Part shown: positions 3,657-23,804 of the stretch, piece after piece
How positions within the stretch are numbered: the stretch's first letter is position 1
Layout of the letters: each line of letters starts with the position of its first letter
Assembly (NCBI GenBank): GCA_902605755.1
Contig: CACLDR010000018.1
Location: 1 to 37,412, forward strand
Length of the DNA: 37,412 nucleotides
From: an uncultured Marinoscillum sp.
GTDB lineage: Bacteria; Bacteroidota; Bacteroidia; Cytophagales; Cyclobacteriaceae
Reading direction: 5' to 3'
The notes under the pieces: generated by a model
What the model was told of the DNA's origin: nothing
The model's database searches: none
The model's input: only the letters and a program-made list of their open reading frames with translations
Program-made: the position numbers and the translations under genes

Positions 3657-4694
3657 CTAAAAGGCATAAACTGCCGCAAGGACAAAAGAAGAAAGAGAAG
3701 ATCCAGCTGCTCCATCGCTATCAGTGTAGCCGTCAAAGGATAAGGCATCTAATCTAATTTCAGGAATGATAGTCAAACTACCACTTGTATAAGGTGCCGA
3801 AAGAGTAGTAGCAAATACACTTTCTTCTTCTATACTACCTAAAATACCTCCAAGACCATCACTAAAATACTCACCTCTAACTCCTAAAGCAAATGCATCT
3901 GATACCGACAGTTGAAGATAGCCAGCAGCACCATAAAAATCAGCAGAATTATCTCCTGATTGAGAAGTGGCATTAACACCTAAATAGAAAGATTCACTTA
4001 GATTCCAACCTGTTGTTAGATCTATTTGAAAGAATTTATCACTTGCTAATACATTTAAGTAGGCGCTGCCCGAACCAGCAGAATAACCCAACTGCAGACC
4101 AGTAACATATTCATTAACAGGGTTAAAGTCGGTTGCGTCAGTTGGGTTCATGTAAGCAATGGCAAGACTAAAGCTCTCACCAAGTGCGAAATCCGCCTTA
4201 ATTCCCGAATGAGAAAAAGGTCCATAAGAGAACATGTATGAGGTGGAATAATTAAAATTGGCAGTCGGCGAAATGACTTCATAACCTAAAAATGTATTGA
4301 AGTTACCTAAAGTAAGCTTAAAATTATCTGTTACATTAATGTAGGCATTTAATTGATTGACAATATTTAAGGCTGGATTTGATCCAAATACAGCTTCTGC
4401 ACCTCTTGGTCCAAATACCAAGTCAGCTACAAAACCCACTTTATCACCGTCATATGACATAATAACATTAGCCATACCAAGTGAAAAACCTGGTAAATTA
4501 GCAAATGACGTTACCGGTGCAAGGGTTCCTCCATCAATTGGATCATTAGTTCCTCCGCTTAAATTTGTCCTAAAATAAGTATCAATGGACCCTGAGACAG
4601 TAAAAGCTGGCTCATCTTGTGCTACCGCTAAGGATGAAACGACCATCATCATGGCAATAAGTAGGCTTTTTATATTTAATTTAAAATTGTTCAT
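3657..4694 (-). CDS. Outer-membrane beta-barrel (porin-like) protein
   Basis: A 345-residue protein with a Sec signal peptide (NIKSLLIAMMMVVSSLAVAQ, cleavage near residue 25). The mature part is built of alternating polar and aromatic/hydrophobic strands rich in Gly, Ser, Asn and Tyr. It ends FVLAAVYAF, a terminal aromatic residue as expected for insertion by the Bam machinery. No catalytic motif is seen. It lies between the ammonium channel gene and glutamine synthetase, all on one strand, so a role in passing ammonium or small nitrogen compounds across the outer membrane is a reasonable inference from context only. Start is ATG 4694, with a typical signal sequence right behind it. Confidence 0.75.
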   Translation of the reverse strand: MNNFKLNIKSLLIAMMMVVSSLAVAQDEPAFTVSGSIDTYFRTNLSGGTNDPIDGGTLAPVTSFANLPGFSLGMANVIMSYDGDKVGFVADLVFGPRGAEAVFGSNPALNIVNQLNAYINVTDNFKLTLGNFNTFLGYEVISPTANFNYSTSYMFSYGPFSHSGIKADFALGESFSLAIAYMNPTDATDFNPVNEYVTGLQLGYSAGSGSAYLNVLASDKFFQIDLTTGWNLSESFYLGVNATSQSGDNSADFYGAAGYLQLSVSDAFALGVRGEYFSDGLGGILGSIEEESVFATTLSAPYTSGSLTIIPEIRLDALSFDGYTDSDGAAGSSLSSFVLAAVYAF

Positions 4695-4792: not shown

Positions 4793-6112
4793 TTATTCTA
4801 CTGTAATCGTATAACCTCTAATTCCATGCTCATGACTGTCAAGTCCCTCTTCTTCATGTTCTTTTGAAACTCTGATACCTGTCGTCATTTTTAGAATAGT
4901 GAATATGATAAAAGCTGCAGGAAAAGCGACTGCTCCTACGATTCCCACAGAAATCAACTGAGTTACAAATGAATGATCTGCGTTCGTTGAAAAAATTCCT
5001 ACCGCCAATGTTCCCCATATACCACAGGTTAAATGAACTGAAACAGCACCTACGACATCATCTAACTTAAGCTTATCTAGGCCTATTGCTGAGAATACAA
5101 CTAAAACACCCGCTACAAGTCCAACTATAATAGAAGCACCAGGGTTGATAACGTCCGCACCCGCCGTAATTCCTACGAGCCCTGCCAAAATACCATTTAG
5201 TACCATTCCCAAATCCATTCTGTTAAAAACAAAATAGCTAGTTACAAATCCGCCTACACCACCAGCACATGCAGCTAGGCACGTTGTTACTAAGACGAAA
5301 GATGTAAGCGCTGGGTCAGCTGAAAGAACAGAGCCACCATTAAATCCAAACCATCCCAACCAAAGTAGGAAGACACCAATTACAGCCAAAGGCACACTTG
5401 ATCCTGGTTTATCAACTACTTTACCGTCGACGTATTTTCCTAGTCTGGGACCCAGTACGATGATACCCGCTAAAGCTCCCCATCCACCTACAGAATGGAC
5501 GAGTGTTGAACCTGCAAAATCATAAAAACCCATCATATCAAGTGCTCCTCCACCCCATTTCCAGCTACCAATCAACGGGTAAACCATTCCAACGAAAACT
5601 ATAGTAAAAATTAGATAAGATGATAATTTTATTCTCTCAGCGACAGCCCCTGACACAATTGTGGCTGCAGTAGCGGCAAACATTCCTTGGAAAAGAAAAT
5701 CCGTCCAGTACGTATAACCAGCACTTGCATAACCTGCTGAGACATCTGCTTTTTCAGGAGAACCCCAGAACATAGACCAACCAGCAGAATCGAAAGCAAA
5801 CCATCCTGAACTTCCGTCAGCAAAACCCGGGTACATTAAGAAAAAACCAAGACCTGCATATGTTAACAGACCTATAATTGGAGTAAGTGTATTTTTGAAT
5901 AATATATTGACTGTATTCTTGGCTTGGCCGAACCCAGACTCAACACCTGCAAACCCCAAATGCATGATAAAAACCAAGGCAGTTGCCAGCATCATCCATA
6001 CATTGTTTGCAGTAAGCAAATCCCCCTCAGCGGCTGCTGCGGTAATTGCTTCTGCTCCTCCACCATCCTGGAGTGCATCAAAAAAAGTTAATATTGGTGA
6101 TTCATTTTTCAT
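4793..6112 (-). CDS. amt: Ammonium channel/transporter (Amt family)
   Basis: A 439-residue inner-membrane protein with about 11 predicted membrane segments. Amt hallmarks: FYDFAGSTLVHSVGGWGALAG contains the conserved Asp and the first pore His, and VGAVSVHLTCGIWGT supplies the second pore His. GFGQAKNTVNIL and the repeated Gly-rich helices also fit. It conducts ammonium/ammonia into the cytoplasm. A roughly 35-residue N-terminal tail rich in Ala/Glu precedes the first membrane helix and does not look like a cleavable signal. No PII (GlnK) gene is adjacent, although amt is often paired with one. Start is ATG 6112. It heads a same-strand group ending in glutamine synthetase. Confidence 0.95.
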   Translation of the reverse strand: MKNESPILTFFDALQDGGGAEAITAAAAEGDLLTANNVWMMLATALVFIMHLGFAGVESGFGQAKNTVNILFKNTLTPIIGLLTYAGLGFFLMYPGFADGSSGWFAFDSAGWSMFWGSPEKADVSAGYASAGYTYWTDFLFQGMFAATAATIVSGAVAERIKLSSYLIFTIVFVGMVYPLIGSWKWGGGALDMMGFYDFAGSTLVHSVGGWGALAGIIVLGPRLGKYVDGKVVDKPGSSVPLAVIGVFLLWLGWFGFNGGSVLSADPALTSFVLVTTCLAACAGGVGGFVTSYFVFNRMDLGMVLNGILAGLVGITAGADVINPGASIIVGLVAGVLVVFSAIGLDKLKLDDVVGAVSVHLTCGIWGTLAVGIFSTNADHSFVTQLISVGIVGAVAFPAAFIIFTILKMTTGIRVSKEHEEEGLDSHEHGIRGYTITVE

Positions 6113-6989: not shown

Positions 6990-8210
6990 TTAAGAAAATG
7001 CATTTATACCGGTGATATCAGCACCAAGAATAAGCAAATGAATATCATGGGTTCCTTCATATGTAACTACCGATTCTAAATTCATCATATGACGCATCAT
7101 TGGAAAATCACCTGTAATTCCCATTCCTCCATGAATTTGCCGCGACTCACGAGCTACATTCAATGCTGTTTCAACACTATTCCTTTTAGCCATTGATATT
7201 TGAGGTGTTGTGGCTTTGCCCTGATCCATCAACAAACCTAGTTTCCAATTAAGCAATTGAGCTTTGGTAATCTCAGTCAGCATCTCAGCCAATTTCTTCT
7301 GAATTAATTGGAATGCCCCTATCGGCTTCCCGAATTGGATACGCTCCAGTGAATATCGGCGAGCTGCATCGTAACAATCCATAGCTGCACCGATTGCTCC
7401 CCAGGCTATTCCATACCGCGCACTATCAAGACATTTCATGGGTGCACCCAAACCGTCTTTCCCTTTTAATAAATTTTCCTTAGGTACTTTGACATCACTA
7501 AAAACAAGCTCTCCAGTGCAAGAGGCTCTCAAAGACCATTTACCATGAGTCTCTGGCGTGGTAAACCCTTCCATTCCTCTCTCAACGATTAAACCATGAA
7601 TCCTACCCTTTTCATCCTTTGCCCAAACAACAGCAATATCTGAATATGGGGCATTGGAAATCCACATTTTTGCTCCATTTAACAAATAATGATCTCCCTT
7701 ATCTTCAAATCTTGTCTCCATTTCTGACGGATTTGATCCATGGTTAGCTTCTGTCAAACCAAAACACCCCAACATTTTTCCAGAGGCTAATTTGGGTAAA
7801 TACTTTTTTTTCTGTTCCTCAGAGCCGTAAGCATTAATAGGGTACATTACCAAAGAACCTTGAACTGATGCAGTAGACCGCATTCCCGAATCACCTCGTT
7901 CAATTTCTTGCATAATTAATCCGTAGGAAATGTAGTCTAGTCCACCTCCACCGTACCGCACCGGAACAGTAGGGCCAAATGCACCAATCTTTCCAAACTT
8001 TGATACAATCTCATTTGGAAAGTAGTTTTTCTGCGCCCAATCTTCAATGAAAGGCGTAATTTCCTTTTTGACAAAATCCCTAATTGAACTACGAATCATT
8101 ATATGTTCTTCAGTGAGCAGATCATCAAGTTGATAATAATCTGAAGACTCGAAGTGGTCTTGTTGATTATTTACGATTTGATGGTTCGAAGGAGATGAAA
8201 TTTTTGACAT
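6990..8210 (-). CDS. gcdH: Glutaryl-CoA dehydrogenase-type acyl-CoA dehydrogenase
   Basis: A 406-residue FAD flavoprotein, predicted to oxidise and decarboxylate glutaryl-CoA to crotonyl-CoA in lysine/tryptophan breakdown. It has the full acyl-CoA dehydrogenase order: helical N-domain, central barrel (GCFGLTEANHGSNPSEMETR) and C-terminal helices with RIQFGKPIGAFQLIQKKLA. Features specific to the glutaryl type are DSGMRSTASVQGSLVMYPI, whose Arg matches the substrate-carboxylate Arg of the human enzyme, and TYEGTHDIHLLILGADITGI, where Glu385 is the catalytic base. The gene stands alone: amt lies about 880 bases downstream and a divergent MORN gene upstream. Electrons would pass to an ETF not encoded here. 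Confidence 0.87.
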   Translation of the reverse strand: MSKISSPSNHQIVNNQQDHFESSDYYQLDDLLTEEHIMIRSSIRDFVKKEITPFIEDWAQKNYFPNEIVSKFGKIGAFGPTVPVRYGGGGLDYISYGLIMQEIERGDSGMRSTASVQGSLVMYPINAYGSEEQKKKYLPKLASGKMLGCFGLTEANHGSNPSEMETRFEDKGDHYLLNGAKMWISNAPYSDIAVVWAKDEKGRIHGLIVERGMEGFTTPETHGKWSLRASCTGELVFSDVKVPKENLLKGKDGLGAPMKCLDSARYGIAWGAIGAAMDCYDAARRYSLERIQFGKPIGAFQLIQKKLAEMLTEITKAQLLNWKLGLLMDQGKATTPQISMAKRNSVETALNVARESRQIHGGMGITGDFPMMRHMMNLESVVTYEGTHDIHLLILGADITGINAFS

Positions 8211-8318: not shown

Positions 8319-10088
8319 GTGGATAAATATTGTTATCTCCTCATTTTTTCTCTGCTTTGGATTCACATCTCTCAAGGACAATTATTACTTCAAACTAATT
8401 TTTTTGATAAAAAAAATCAAAAAATTGAAAGTATTATCAGTCTTTCCCCGAACGATTCAACATTGGAAGGACCTTATCTTACTTATTATCCAAATGGACA
8501 TAAAAAAATCGAAGGATATTATCATTTAAACAAAGCTGACAGTCTTTGGATCTTCTATCACGATAATAATTATGTAAAATCAATCGGCCATTTTTTGAAT
8601 AATAGGCAATTTGGTCTTTGGAAATATTATAATAACTTAGGAATTAAACAAAGAGAAATTACATTTAAAAACGGAAGAAAAAATGGTATTTACAAAGAAT
8701 ACTATGATGAAGAAAATTTAAAATTGTCAGGAGAATTATTGAATGATAAAAAAATAGGTCTTTGGAAAGAATACTATCAAAATGGGATAATAAAAAGTAC
8801 AAAACTGATTCAAAATGATACTGCTGTAATACTACGATCATTCTTTCCCAGTGGCAATGTCAGTCTAAAAGGAACAAAAATTAACAACAAACGCTCGGGT
8901 AAATGGACTTATTTTCATGAAAATGGCGAAGTGGCCAGCGAAGGGTTTTATAAAAAAAATACAAAGGATGGTTCTTGGACATATTGGAATGAAAATGGAA
9001 CAAAAAATGCTGAAGGCAATTATACTTTAGGAAAGAAGCAGGGCTATTGGTTTTTTTATGATAACAATGGAGCGCTAAGAACTTCAGGAGATTTCTCAAA
9101 TGACCTTGGCGATATAAAAACATTTGACACGGCAGGTAATATCCAGGCAAGGGGAAAACTTTTAAACGGAGAAAAATTTGGTAATTGGATATATTTTAAT
9201 CCTGATGGTAAAATCATTGGTAAAGCTATTTTTGAAAATGGACTAGGTAGATATCAAGGTTTCTATCTTGATGGTACTTTGCGAACATCTGGCACCATTG
9301 AAAATGAAAAGAAAATTGGCGAATGGATGATCTATGACAAGAACGGCAATTTGGAAGGTAAATATACTCCTATTTACGATCATTTGTATGATCATTCATT
9401 AAAGATCAAACCTCAAAAAGACCAGCGGCAACCTCTTAGTCCAAAGACATTAAAACAAAATCCTGACTTTTTATATAAACCTAATTTAAATAGATACTTC
9501 AATAAGCGTAAACATGAATACAATGGTTTAATTTTTTCCTCAGGACTTCTTAATCCTATGCTGAATCAAATATCTCTGGGTCTAGAATTGTATTGTCAAG
9601 AACGTTTGGGTCATGAAATAATCTACAGCTTTTATCGCGATCCCATCTTTAAAAAATTCAGGGATATAAATGATTACCAACCATATGAATATGGTCATGA
9701 TATCACAATCAAGCAAAAGTTCTACCAAAGAGACAGTGATTTAGGTATGCCATATTTCGGTCATCAAATTTCGATGTCTCTGCGCAAACACGAATTAAAT
9801 GGATTAGACAAAACAAAGTTACCTTTTCAAGCCCTGATTATACAATGCGAGGAACTCTCTATTGAATATGGTGTCTACATTGGATATAAATGGATGAAAA
9901 AATCAGATGGCAAGGGTTTTGTCCTAGATGCATTTTCTGGAATAAATCTAGGTATATCAAAATGGACTCCATTATATGAAGAAAATGCCTTATATGACAC
10001 ATATTTTAAGGATGTAAAGATGAGCGCATCTTTACTCTCTTTAAACTTTGGTGTTATGATTGGTTTCTCGACAAAAAAAATAAAATGA
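8319..10088 (+). CDS. MORN-repeat protein with C-terminal barrel-like domain
   Basis: A 589-residue secreted protein starting at GTG 8319, with a signal peptide (LLIFSLLWIHISQG, cleavage near residue 20). Residues about 50-345 hold roughly 13 MORN_2-type repeats of about 23 residues, pattern GxWxYYxxNGxxxxxGxxxxxxxx; clear copies start GLWKYYNNLG, GKWTYFHENG and GSWTYWNENG. After a basic linker, residues about 395-589 alternate polar and aromatic residues (EYGVYIGYKWM, FVLDAFSGINLGI, SLNFGVMIGFS) and resemble a small outer-membrane barrel. This would anchor the repeats at the envelope. The function is unknown. Automatic pipelines often call such repeats YwqK antitoxin, but no toxin is near. 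It overlaps the next gene by 4 bases. Confidence 0.75.
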   Translation: MDKYCYLLIFSLLWIHISQGQLLLQTNFFDKKNQKIESIISLSPNDSTLEGPYLTYYPNGHKKIEGYYHLNKADSLWIFYHDNNYVKSIGHFLNNRQFGLWKYYNNLGIKQREITFKNGRKNGIYKEYYDEENLKLSGELLNDKKIGLWKEYYQNGIIKSTKLIQNDTAVILRSFFPSGNVSLKGTKINNKRSGKWTYFHENGEVASEGFYKKNTKDGSWTYWNENGTKNAEGNYTLGKKQGYWFFYDNNGALRTSGDFSNDLGDIKTFDTAGNIQARGKLLNGEKFGNWIYFNPDGKIIGKAIFENGLGRYQGFYLDGTLRTSGTIENEKKIGEWMIYDKNGNLEGKYTPIYDHLYDHSLKIKPQKDQRQPLSPKTLKQNPDFLYKPNLNRYFNKRKHEYNGLIFSSGLLNPMLNQISLGLELYCQERLGHEIIYSFYRDPIFKKFRDINDYQPYEYGHDITIKQKFYQRDSDLGMPYFGHQISMSLRKHELNGLDKTKLPFQALIIQCEELSIEYGVYIGYKWMKKSDGKGFVLDAFSGINLGISKWTPLYEENALYDTYFKDVKMSASLLSLNFGVMIGFSTKKIK

Positions 10089-10462
10089 TAACAAAAAAAT
10101 ACACTCTTATTTTGGGAGCTTCGCCAAATCCGAAAAGATATGGAAATATGGCTGCACTAAAACTTTACTATGCTGGCAAACCCTTTATTCCCGTTGGAAT
10201 AAAGTCAGGTCAGATTGCTGGAAAAAATATAGAAGAGCTCAGTACTCTTAAAAAATATGATAACATAGATACGGTAACACTTTATCTTAGCCCAAAAAAT
10301 CAAATACCCTATGAGGATTATATCATTTCTATTAAGCCGAGGAGAATAATTTTTAATCCTGGAACGGAAAATCCTAAGCTCATGAATCTTGCTCAAAATA
10401 AAGGCATCGAAGTCTTAAAAGCCTGCACTTTAGTAATGCTAGCTTCAAACACCTATGACTAA
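10085..10462 (+). CDS. CoA-binding domain protein (YccU-like)
   Basis: A 125-residue single-domain Rossmann protein starting at ATG 10085 inside the stop of the MORN gene (ATGA overlap), so translation is probably coupled. The opening TLILGASPNPKRYGNMAAL is the nucleotide-binding turn of the CoA_binding_2 family, and KPFIPVG, VTLYLSPKNQ and IIFNPGTENP follow in the usual order. The length is normal for the family, which resembles the N-terminal domain of succinyl-CoA synthetase alpha. These proteins bind CoA; the cellular role is poorly defined. The MORN neighbour does not clarify it. Confidence 0.8.
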   Translation: MITKKYTLILGASPNPKRYGNMAALKLYYAGKPFIPVGIKSGQIAGKNIEELSTLKKYDNIDTVTLYLSPKNQIPYEDYIISIKPRRIIFNPGTENPKLMNLAQNKGIEVLKACTLVMLASNTYD

Positions 10463-10571: not shown

Positions 10572-12557
<1,986 letters not shown>

Positions 12558-14420: not shown

Positions 14421-15485
14421 CTAAGGTATCAATGCCTCAAGGGAAATTACATGTGTTGCATTTAATGGATCATTAGTAAATAAGGTTAAATTTTTAAATT
14501 GACGTCCTCTTCTGTTTTGAGGATTTAGCATAATAGTTAAAATTGTACTATCTCCCCCAACAATATTTTTCTTCTCTAAATTCCACTCGATGCACCCGCA
14601 ATTAGACTTAATCATCCTAATATTTAATAAATCAATACCCTTATTGTATAAATTCAATGTGTACATAGAGGATTGATTCGATGATATTTTACCAAAATCT
14701 ATATTTTTCACAGAACACTCGAGTACGGGATAATTAGCTGAATCAATCCCATTAAATTCTTCATTTTGAAGATATTCCTCAATAGTCGCAACAACACTTA
14801 TCATTTTCAAAGGCATGTCCTTATCCGTAGTATTTATGACCAACCCATCACTGAGAAAACCTAAATCAGACCTTTGAACTGGATCATAATTTATAGTAAT
14901 GGTACCTACAGATTTGGGAGGCAAAGTATTAGGAGTTATCCTTAATCTAATAAAGTCTGGAATAATAGATGAGGGCATCAGAAAGGTCATTGCGCTGTCT
15001 GAATTATTATAAATTTTAAAATCTTTTTCAACTGATTTATGATGCCAAATTGATCCCATATTAAGAACTTTATAATGCAAAAAAAGATTTCCATAATGGG
15101 CAGTAAATTTCGAAATGATATTTTTACTATTAATTACGTAACCTGTCATATATAAGGCAGTACTGCTACCCTGATCGTTGACTGCATAAATGCGTTTGTG
15201 AAAGGCGCCAATTCTATTCGATACGTCAAAGTAAACCGTAATAGAATCTGATGCATTAGGTGGTATTTTTGAAGTATTCCAAACCGCTTCAATGCACTCA
15301 CAAGTTGATCTCACATTGACGATACTAACACTATCCTCTCCTTGATTCATAAATATGTAATTGTGACTTACCTCTTCATTTTCATACAGATCACCAAAAC
15401 GATGCGTAGTTTCCAGAAATTTTAGACTTGACTGCCCGAGGCCTGACAGTGAATAAAAAACAAAAATGATAAAAAAATGACGCAT
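14421..15485 (-). CDS. Exported protein with two DUF1573 domains
   Basis: A 354-residue protein with a signal peptide (HFFIIFVFYSLSGLGQ). Two related immunoglobulin-like DUF1573 units are visible. One spans about residues 22-115 (ETTHRFGDLYENE, then VRSTCECIEAVW). The other spans about 255-350 (VKNIDFGKISSNQ, then IKSNCGCIEWNL). Each has the family's paired Cys in a CxC motif. The middle (about 120-250) looks like a third, more diverged beta-sandwich without the Cys pair. The family is common in Bacteroidota and is extracytoplasmic; its biochemical role is unknown. The gene converges with the M1 peptidase and diverges from trpS, with a 93-base gap. Confidence 0.82.
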   Translation of the reverse strand: MRHFFIIFVFYSLSGLGQSSLKFLETTHRFGDLYENEEVSHNYIFMNQGEDSVSIVNVRSTCECIEAVWNTSKIPPNASDSITVYFDVSNRIGAFHKRIYAVNDQGSSTALYMTGYVINSKNIISKFTAHYGNLFLHYKVLNMGSIWHHKSVEKDFKIYNNSDSAMTFLMPSSIIPDFIRLRITPNTLPPKSVGTITINYDPVQRSDLGFLSDGLVINTTDKDMPLKMISVVATIEEYLQNEEFNGIDSANYPVLECSVKNIDFGKISSNQSSMYTLNLYNKGIDLLNIRMIKSNCGCIEWNLEKKNIVGGDSTILTIMLNPQNRRGRQFKNLTLFTNDPLNATHVISLEALIP

Positions 15486-21350: not shown

Positions 21351-23804
21351 TTGAAATATATCCTTCACTATTTATCATTAGCTCTTTCCCTATCCTCTTG
21401 CATAGGTTATCGCTTCCTGCCTGAAGGTGAAAAATTACTTGTCAAAGATCCTAAAATTATCGGACTTTCAACTAATCAAGAAAAAGAGATCGAAAACTTC
21501 GTCACTCAAAAAGCAAATAAACGATTGGCGAGCCTGCTACCCATTAGTTATCTCGCCAATATTTATGAGCTTGGAAAACTCAGATATGATACCGCGATAT
21601 ACCAGACAAAAATGAAAAGCTTAAATATTGAGGATAATTCTACAATTAGCAAATTAAATAACCCTCGCCATATTACTCGGATCACAAAAAAGGTCAATAA
21701 AAAAATCGATAAAACAAATGTTCAGATGACTCAAGGAAATTATCTTATGCGATTGGGAGAACCCTTGGCCGTATATGACAAGGAAAAACATATTGAATCT
21801 AAAGATAAGATCAAGCGCTATTTATCATCCAAAGGTTATTTAAATGTCAGCATAAACTTGATAGAAAAAAAAATAAGAAATAAAAAAATTAAAGTGGTTT
21901 ATAATATAAAATTAGGCGATCAGTTCTTGATTGACTCTATAAAATATGACATTAAGGATCAGAATATTAAAAAACTTTTAGAAGAAAATAAAAAAGTAAG
22001 TTTTTTAATAGAAGGAACACCATATGATCAGCAAAATATTAAAAAAGAGCGAGCACGCATTTATAATGTTTTATCCGATAACGGATATTATAAATTTGAT
22101 AAAAAATTTATCACTTTTGACTTAGATACTACCATTACAAAAAGAAATGATCTTTGGGTAACCGTAAAAATTTCCGCCCCATCTCAACGGAAATCTCACA
22201 ATAAGTATATAGTTCAAGCGGTAAATTTCTATTCATCAAGGAATACAGGATCTAAAAGAAAAAATAAATTGATGGACCGATATGAAGTAGTTTTTGATCA
22301 AAATAGTGATGGATTCAATAAAAAGATATTGAATAGGACTATTTCAATAAAACCAGATAATTTGTATAGCAAAGCAGAAATGCTAAAAACTCAGCAACGA
22401 TTAAACCTACTTGAGACTTATAAGTTCATCAATATTACTTACGATACTGTCAATCAAAATAATCTAATCGCTCAAATTTTTTCAAGCCCAATGGATAAAT
22501 ATCAAACAAGTAACGAAATTGGATTTTTGCAAGATGACTTTTCACAAGTTTTACCAGGACCTTTCATCAATCTCGGAGTTAAAAAAAGAAATGCATTTGG
22601 CAATTTTGAATTAGCTGAATTAAACTTAAATTTTTCACTTTTAGGTATCTCTAATATTGATTCAAGAAATCAGGCCTATTCTCTTTTTGAATATGGAGGA
22701 CGATTGGCTTTCACTTTTCATCAGTTTTTATTTCCTTTATCCCCGGATTTTAATAAAAAAATCAACTTACTTAACCCACGTACAAGACTTTCTTTCTACT
22801 ATAATTATGAAGACCGCACCAAAGAATACGAGAGAAACCAAATTTTTAGTGACTTCTCCTACCTATGGTCCCAAAATAGGAAAAAACAGTTCATATTTAC
22901 CCCCTTTGGGATTAATTATACTGAAATTCGTAAAATAGACCAATCATTTCAATCTTTTTTGGATACACAAGATACATTAGGCAATCGTTCATTGTCTGCA
23001 GCTTTTAAACCTTCACTTACTACACTAATTTCTTTTGAAGCCATCATAAATCAAAATAATTATGGTAATTTATCCTCAAAATCGAGCCTTTTAAGATTAC
23101 TAACTGAATCGGGCGGACTTTATGTAAACGCCTTTGAGAACTTACTTCCAAACTCAAATTTTACTTTATTCAAATGGCTAAAATTTAATATTGATTTTAG
23201 ATCTCATATGATTTCTAAAAGTGGTCAGATTGCTTTAAAAATTAATTTTGGAGCTGCTTATGCATATGGGGATGCCCAAGCCCTACCATATGAGCGAAGA
23301 TTTTATGCCGGTGGTAGCAATAGTATTCGAGCATGGCCTGTGAGAAGACTTGGACCTGGTGCCTATGGAGAAATTAACACTATGAAATATGCATTTAATC
23401 AGGATGAAGTAGCTCAAATAGACTATCAAAGAGAGCAAGGAGGAGATCTGATCATAGAGACCTCTTTAGAATACCGAAATAAATTGACAACCAATATAAA
23501 CTATGCTATCTTTGCGGATATAGGCAATATTTGGTTACTCAATGGCAACCAATCCATCAAAGATTACGAAGGAGATGATGGGATATTTCGGTTTAACTCG
23601 TTTTACAAAGAACTTGCCATGGGTATCGGTATGGGACTTCGATATGATTTCTCCTTCATGATCCTAAGACTAGATGGTGCCATTCAGGTGGTGGATCCCG
23701 CTCAGCCCACAGGCAAAAGATATGTTTTAAACCAACTATTGTCTCAAAATGGAGTTTTCAGGAATAAGTCTAACATAAATATAGGTATTGGACTACCTTT
23801 TTAA
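21351..23804 (+). CDS. tamL: TamL-type Omp85 outer-membrane lipoprotein
   Basis: An 817-residue Omp85 protein starting at TTG 21351. It has a lipoprotein signal, HYLSLALSLSSC, with Cys17 as the lipid-bearing residue. POTRA-like repeats span about residues 90-400 (KRYLSSKGYLNVSI, RIYNVLSDNGYYKF, RTISIKPDNLYSKAEMLKTQQRL), and a 16-strand-type barrel runs to the terminal NIGIGLPF. The L6 lock motif region reads RRFYAGGSNSIRAWPVRRLGPG. Bacteroidota carry this lipidated TamA/BamA relative, called TamL; it is thought to work with TamB in envelope biogenesis, but no tamB is in view. hemF follows after 5 bases. Confidence 0.85.
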   Translation: MKYILHYLSLALSLSSCIGYRFLPEGEKLLVKDPKIIGLSTNQEKEIENFVTQKANKRLASLLPISYLANIYELGKLRYDTAIYQTKMKSLNIEDNSTISKLNNPRHITRITKKVNKKIDKTNVQMTQGNYLMRLGEPLAVYDKEKHIESKDKIKRYLSSKGYLNVSINLIEKKIRNKKIKVVYNIKLGDQFLIDSIKYDIKDQNIKKLLEENKKVSFLIEGTPYDQQNIKKERARIYNVLSDNGYYKFDKKFITFDLDTTITKRNDLWVTVKISAPSQRKSHNKYIVQAVNFYSSRNTGSKRKNKLMDRYEVVFDQNSDGFNKKILNRTISIKPDNLYSKAEMLKTQQRLNLLETYKFINITYDTVNQNNLIAQIFSSPMDKYQTSNEIGFLQDDFSQVLPGPFINLGVKKRNAFGNFELAELNLNFSLLGISNIDSRNQAYSLFEYGGRLAFTFHQFLFPLSPDFNKKINLLNPRTRLSFYYNYEDRTKEYERNQIFSDFSYLWSQNRKKQFIFTPFGINYTEIRKIDQSFQSFLDTQDTLGNRSLSAAFKPSLTTLISFEAIINQNNYGNLSSKSSLLRLLTESGGLYVNAFENLLPNSNFTLFKWLKFNIDFRSHMISKSGQIALKINFGAAYAYGDAQALPYERRFYAGGSNSIRAWPVRRLGPGAYGEINTMKYAFNQDEVAQIDYQREQGGDLIIETSLEYRNKLTTNINYAIFADIGNIWLLNGNQSIKDYEGDDGIFRFNSFYKELAMGIGMGLRYDFSFMILRLDGAIQVVDPAQPTGKRYVLNQLLSQNGVFRNKSNINIGIGLPF

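Follow-up and report, generated by a model that had tools for sequence, protein, structure and literature searches.

We identified a gene on the forward strand at positions 8319..10088 of the window (the whole stretch of DNA that was analysed, 37,412 nucleotides) that encodes a 589-residue protein in which MORN_2 repeats precede a distinct C-terminal domain. Modelling suggests that this domain is most likely a small eight-stranded outer-membrane barrel that anchors the MORN rod. Orthologues support the gene as a whole, and the protein belongs to an orthologous, mostly single-copy family. We are quite confident of the anatomy, namely a barrel anchor with a periplasmic MORN rod. We think it somewhat likelier than otherwise that the protein acts as an outer-membrane-anchored periplasmic scaffold that binds other proteins or dimerises.

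A MORN rod and a predicted C-terminal barrel

The open frame begins with GTG, at a position shared with the first start codon of relatives L038, L039, L042, and L011 (GTG) and of L040/L012 (ATG). In relative L043, a further in-frame TTG precedes the shared position. Among six close relatives in named records, the frame is intact in L038, L039, L040, L042, and L043 and broken in L041. On the L010/L041 contig, which comes from one draft genome, matches to the MORN-barrel, acyl-CoA dehydrogenase, and GyrB genes are all broken; breaks across three genes suggest sequencing errors rather than pseudogenes. The source genome is a 1.76-Mb draft that is 67.9% complete. Residues 1-21 (8319..8381, forward strand) read as a probable signal peptide with cleavage near Q21: the N-terminus is hydrophobic by eye, and Q21 is nearly invariant across relatives.

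Thirteen MORN_2 repeats of 22-25 residues each occupy residues 49-354 (8463..9380, forward strand), with unit borders set by reading and the last unit running into the linker. The protein matches the MORN_2 model (Pfam accession PF07661) with an E-value of 4.9e-20 and 69.7 bits, against a gathering cut-off of 29.6. Residues 46-352 show a 24-residue period with 64 identities at lag 24, compared to a maximum of 40 identities over lags 10-39 in 1000 shuffles. The repeats are followed by a linker that begins with a Y-x-P-x-Y motif; the span used for its charge count (residues 349-392; 9363..9494, forward strand) has a computed net charge of +4 and a pI of 9.6. A sequence-only reading of this DNA had described about 13 MORN_2 repeats and a basic linker, and both descriptions are borne out.

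The full-length AlphaFold2 model is poor (pLDDT 50, pTM 0.29), so the barrel was also folded alone (residues 391-589, with five close relatives); each of the two structure alignments held six close sequences. The full-length model has solved MORN folds among its best matches, including radial-spoke proteins, SET7/9, MORN1, and junctophilin (Z about 8-12), mostly over residues ~48-200. Residues ~220-355 match OspA-type sheets and some glycosyltransferase sheets, and residues 398-585 match CarO (Z 10.3) and a Thermus outer-membrane protein (Z 10.2).

All 41 full-length proteins, comprising the source protein and 40 orthologues, contain MORN_2 (E ≤ 0.001). Rod charge varies widely within the family. 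Net charge ranges from -19 to +12 among 65 proteins, and the median rod pI is 6.1 over these 65, compared to 9.3 in the source protein. Rod charge is thus not conserved; it points to no ligand in common, and a single electrostatic ligand kept across the family is disfavoured. We also detected six further MORN-like matches to the rod (L002-L007) on four contigs (C14, C54, C19, and C17) of the source genome (G000), none of which covers the barrel part.

The C-terminal domain spans residues 393-589 (9495..10085, forward strand). Folded alone, it is modelled as eight antiparallel strands (residues 399-412, 417-428, 432-442, 456-469, 477-497, 504-529, 532-551, and 572-584) with a pLDDT of 64 and a pTM of 0.59, a modest confidence that weakens the case for the barrel. 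When Foldseek candidates were aligned with VIA-align 2, the best solved fold was the OprF N-terminal domain (Z 12.3, rmsd 2.6, 130 aligned residues), and other top membrane barrels were NspA (Z 12.1), OmpA (11.3), and OmpW (10.5). By title or general knowledge, 19 of the first 20 solved-match rows are natural outer-membrane barrels or designed transmembrane barrels. Structures that we take to be soluble barrels scored lower: BcnB (Z 9.4), a YceI-like protein (9.2), and a polyisoprenoid-binding protein (8.1). Foldseek itself returned no match at E ≤ 0.001. Its best match was a Thermus outer-membrane protein (E 2.4e-3), and its first ten include two leukocidin chains (probability 0.41 and 0.33).

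Two properties of the strands bear on a membrane barrel. Hydropathy alternation over the eight strands is 14.5, compared to 8.4 for shuffles (p 0.007), being strong in strands 2, 4, 7, and 8 and weak in strands 1, 3, 5, and 6. The barrel-like alternation that the sequence-only reading had seen across about 195 C-terminal residues is real overall and uneven among strands, and its weakness in four of them counts against the barrel reading. The last strand (10032..10070, forward strand) carries NFGVMIGF at residues 576-583, which we read as a beta-signal-like end on the motif that we assume for such signals. A beta-signal-like pattern occurs within the last 45 residues in 44 of 72 rows, among which some genomes appear twice, compared to 1693 of 6843 internal control windows (24.7%). 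Terminal enrichment of a strict pattern is moderate, and this pattern is the one sign seen of BAM-dependent assembly in the outer membrane.

Sequence searches place the domain near no described family. When residues 395-589 were searched by themselves, neither Pfam nor NCBIfam gave a match up to E 10, in line with the earlier remark that the architecture was not recognised as a characterised one. In the PDB, searches with the full protein (best E 0.083) and with a profile of 29 relatives (best E 0.092) found no solved relative, and the best hits carry unrelated names. Scanned singly against Pfam at E up to 1, the same 29 relatives hit seven families, all below threshold. Four of these families, which we take to be of the membrane-barrel type, are OMP_b-brl (two relatives, with the best E-value overall, 0.0073), DUF481 (two relatives), OmpW (one relative, E 0.009), and DUF3575 (one relative, E 0.02). 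The other three have unrelated names and were hit by one relative each.

Several observations bear on the side of the membrane that the rod would occupy. With eight strands, a barrel has its two ends on the same side of the membrane, and in known outer-membrane proteins that side is the periplasm. In the model, 12 residues in three turns are assigned to the inside and 43 residues in four loops to the outside. Conservation is higher in the strand halves next to the turns than in those next to the loops (0.566 vs 0.434, over 65 rows after merging identical ends). No permutation in 10,000 matched this difference, a number that serves as a guide since columns were treated as independent. Among turns and loops, conservation peaks in the first barrel turn, RLG (0.728; the next is 0.436). 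The model thus places the constrained face of the barrel on the periplasmic side. The even strand number, the short turns and long loops, and the conservation bias together argue for a periplasmic MORN rod. Of the ‘surface or periplasmic’ rod on a small barrel proposed from sequence, the barrel anchor gains support from structure prediction, the periplasmic placement is favoured, and the surface placement is disfavoured.

Distribution and relatives with helical-looking N-terminal domains

We searched residues 395-589 on their own for homologous barrels, as the sequence-only reading had suggested. Of 196 genomes sampled from the taxonomic family (Cyclobacteriaceae), 132 have a match and the other 64 have none. 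The 132 nearly always hold one copy, with two matches in just two of them, and the open frames are mostly ~570-690 residues long. In the order-level sample, 67 of 291 genomes have a barrel match, with strong scores in nine other families; two of the 67 have weak matches only (E 0.005-0.007) in frames of ~210 residues. The class-level sample of 295 genomes yields 13 with a match: four belong to the family and nine lie outside the order. No relative of the MORN-barrel protein was found in the viral contigs searched.

All nine matches from beyond the order have weak scores, with E-values from 1.8e-5 to 7.2e-4. Two are to proteins of ~235 residues. Six (L051, L052, L053, L056, L057, and L058) are to long Bacteroidia proteins in which an N-terminal domain that looks helical is joined through a charged linker (by reading) to a barrel-like end. 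Compared by hhalign, the barrels of these six proteins and the MORN barrels align over 178 columns with a probability of 96.6, an E-value of 6.9e-10, and 15% identity. By reading, the N-terminal domain of the six appears TPR-like; one of them, scanned whole, gave sub-threshold TPR hits only and no clear Pfam match. The helical-repeat barrel part has no real Pfam match, and its profile (A4) matched 0 of 296 phylum genomes, a result that carries no weight, as the sample may not include the A4 source genomes. Homology between the two sets of barrels is as expected of an anchor whose periplasmic domains differ; the barrel seems to be an anchor reused with various N-terminal domains.

Genomic neighbourhood and gene history

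The MORN-barrel gene lies in a conserved block. Upstream, at 6990..8210 on the reverse strand, is a divergent acyl-CoA dehydrogenase gene, which in NCBIfam scores best against the glutaryl-CoA dehydrogenase model (282.7 bits; cut-off 470). Downstream, a CoA_binding_2 gene (10085..10462, forward strand; Pfam accession PF13380, E 7.7e-21) overlaps the MORN-barrel gene by ATGA, and a GyrB-type topoisomerase gene (10578..12557, forward strand; product read by eye) ends the block. We examined 40 chosen orthologue loci with ~5 kb flanks where available, some of them cut by contig ends. The acyl-CoA dehydrogenase gene is divergent upstream in 26/40 loci, the CoA_binding_2 gene is downstream on the same strand or overlapping in 24/40, and GyrB is downstream on the same strand in 14/40. 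A tryptophan-2,3-dioxygenase-like gene lies on the same strand, within 207 bases or overlapping, in 27/40 loci, and a gene for an FAD-dependent protein (Pfam accession PF21688) lies downstream, within 2 kb or overlapping, in 22/40. In 19/40 loci both are present, the dioxygenase-like gene before the MORN-barrel gene and the FAD gene after it. The dioxygenase-like match covers part of the Pfam model only and reaches 96.6 bits against an NCBIfam equivalog cut-off of 390.7.

Similar blocks exist without the MORN-barrel gene. Among 16 chosen genomes that lack a barrel match, 12 have the FAD gene immediately after the dioxygenase-like gene; another gene lies between the two in one, and the FAD gene was not found nearby in three. 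A dioxygenase-like homologue is present in 169 of 196 family genomes, compared to 132 with the MORN-barrel gene. The source genus has kept the MORN-barrel gene, and the dioxygenase-like and FAD genes are missing from its block. A quick tree of 41 acyl-CoA dehydrogenases gives two presence/absence changes, of which well-supported branches force one. The MORN-barrel gene thus appears to be an old resident of the conserved block that was lost once or twice in the sample. The missing matches in 64 of 196 family genomes and these apparent losses indicate that it is dispensable there.

Two functional links suggested by gene order were considered and set aside. The sequence-only reading had proposed translational coupling to the CoA-binding gene. 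The ATGA overlap stands and, by coordinates, also occurs in L038, L042, L081, and L085, but a joint function is not supported: the overlap is a local feature of a conserved block that lost genes, and the FAD gene lies on the same side in more than half of the loci. A link to tryptophan catabolism is not our main reading, as each of the two genes is found without the other.

We also noted several features around the locus and in the family. The family seems to hold two classes of tryptophan-dioxygenase-like gene. In G013:C1, matches lie at 5770876 and 3781936, one of them 58% and one 47% identical to the query; each of the five other genomes in the source genus has a single match (47-48%), and the source draft has none. 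Two genes downstream of the GyrB-like gene, 14421-15485 (reverse strand) encodes a protein with DUF1573 and HYDIN/VesB-like Ig matches, a relative of which is encoded upstream of the MORN-barrel gene in 7/40 loci. Elsewhere in the window, 21351-23804 (forward strand) encodes an Omp85-superfamily protein with a POTRA match and adjoins genes for a coproporphyrinogen oxidase and a PAP2 protein. A BBP2-type porin gene at 3657-4694 (reverse strand) adjoins 4793-6112, the product of which reads as an ammonium transporter.

Proposed role and relation to known systems

From the computed repeats, barrel-type fold, orthology, and conservation bias, we infer a route that runs from export to a scaffold role. 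The protein would be exported by the Sec route, and its last ~195 residues would insert into the outer membrane as an eight-stranded barrel. On the periplasmic side, the 13 MORN repeats would form a stiff single-sheet rod hung below the outer membrane on the flexible basic linker. We estimate a rod length of ~12 nm if each repeat contributes two strands of 4.8 Å. By analogy to known MORN proteins, the rod would most likely self-associate or bind other proteins, and thereby hold or space parts of the envelope. One study describes MORN1 structures that dimerise and terms MORN repeats protein-protein interaction modules (PMC7725318). We found no interaction partner for the rod.

Other roles can be weighed against the same evidence. 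In one that overlaps with the scaffold reading, and that we consider unlikely, the protein handles lipid or tethers the cell wall: its rod would reach across part of the periplasm and bind peptidoglycan or the tails of lipids. A rod of the estimated length might reach peptidoglycan. TbMORN1 is reported to interact with individual phospholipids but not to bind membranes or vesicles (PMC7725318). The unconserved rod charge also argues against this role, as does a Pfam scan up to E 10 that found no OmpA-like peptidoglycan-binding domain. It is improbable that the barrel is a channel through which a small hydrophobic or aromatic compound is taken up, tied to the tryptophan and acyl-CoA neighbour genes, with the MORN rod passing on the substrate or positioning the channel. 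OmpW is among the fold matches, and small hydrophobic substrates are a known feature of OmpW-type barrels. The frequent dioxygenase-like and acyl-CoA dehydrogenase neighbours fit such a channel; however, the dioxygenase-like gene is kept without the MORN-barrel gene (12/16 loci; 169 vs 132 of 196 genomes), the source genus keeps the MORN-barrel gene without a dioxygenase-like gene at the locus, and conservation sits on the periplasmic side of the barrel.

A rod or adhesin displayed on the surface, with its MORN repeats outside the cell as in LIC20035, is decidedly improbable. The LIC20035 model (NCBIfam) aligns with the MORN region, but at 67.7 bits against a cut-off of 250, and its best stretch covers residues 50-206 only. 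An even-stranded barrel that follows the repeats would leave them in the periplasm, with the long variable loops opposite, and Pfam and NCBIfam scans to E 10 showed no secretion-type C-terminal domain. We give very little weight to a C-terminal domain that is a soluble periplasmic lipid-binding barrel of the YceI/calycin type, which would make the whole protein soluble. BcnB, YceI-like, and polyisoprenoid-binding structures do match the model, but the best membrane barrels score ~1-3 Z higher, the weak Pfam hits of the relatives are mostly to outer-membrane families, and beta-signal-like ends are enriched. MORN_2 proteins are also often labelled YwqK antitoxins, a role that we regard as close to negligible here. 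YwqK is a named antitoxin in Bacillus subtilis (PMC6562991), but the neighbours of the MORN-barrel gene encode an acyl-CoA dehydrogenase, a CoA_binding_2 protein, and a GyrB-like protein, with no toxin gene among them; the MORN-barrel and CoA-binding proteins have no PADLOC match, and the barrel does not fit an antitoxin.

The periplasmic scaffold reading can be compared to known envelope proteins. OmpA consists of a barrel with a periplasmic domain borne on a linker. The MORN-barrel protein resembles OmpA and OprF in its small eight-stranded barrel fold (Z 11-12) and in having a linker-borne periplasmic domain, whereas its order is reversed, with an N-terminal periplasmic part that is a MORN rod. 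The C-terminal OmpA-like peptidoglycan-binding domain sought as a test of membership in the OmpA family was not found (Pfam, E up to 10). The six Bacteroidia proteins share the layout of N-terminal domain, charged linker, and homologous C-terminal barrel, and differ in that their N-terminal domain reads as helical rather than MORN. These likenesses raise a tentative and rather doubtful wider reading, in which the Bacteroidia barrel is a general socket, an ‘inverted OmpA’ with an interchangeable N-terminal rod, and the MORN version is a ~12-nm spacer or docking rail. If so, the rod would be a MORN sheet in this order and helical repeats elsewhere, and the rail would set the distance from the outer membrane to the cell wall or to a partner complex, an envelope part new to description. 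MORN repeats are widespread in bacteria and poorly characterised. This family ties them to a predicted outer-membrane anchor and so makes their location and side predictable and testable, and the homologous barrel that carries helical repeats hints at modularity in how scaffolds are hung under the Bacteroidota outer membrane.

Among the literature matches listed (titles and abstract starts, with subscription papers mostly outside), no MORN-barrel fusion is described, and no paper matched MORN repeat with Bacteroidetes outer membrane or with Bacteroidota. Known MORN proteins share single features with the family. MORN1, junctophilin, and SET7/9 have the same repeat type and single-sheet fold, but are eukaryotic and have no membrane barrel. 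The LIC20035 family adhesin (NCBIfam accession NF033566) aligns with the MORN region below its cut-off, as above, and likewise has no barrel. A 2009 study lists a chlamydial ‘MORN motif proteins, kinases’ cluster among predicted outer-membrane proteins; this is a prediction in a different phylum, and the passage concerned mentions no barrel fusion (PMC2811131). In bacterial MORN-heliorhodopsin fusions, too, the MORN repeats precede a membrane domain, but the partner is a rhodopsin, the MORN part is cytoplasmic with typically three repeats, and the hosts are Firmicutes (PMC8612252). The parts of the MORN-barrel protein are thus of known kinds; their combination, MORN first and barrel last, and the homology of its barrel to a version with helical repeats were not found described among the papers listed, nor as a family in Pfam or NCBIfam.
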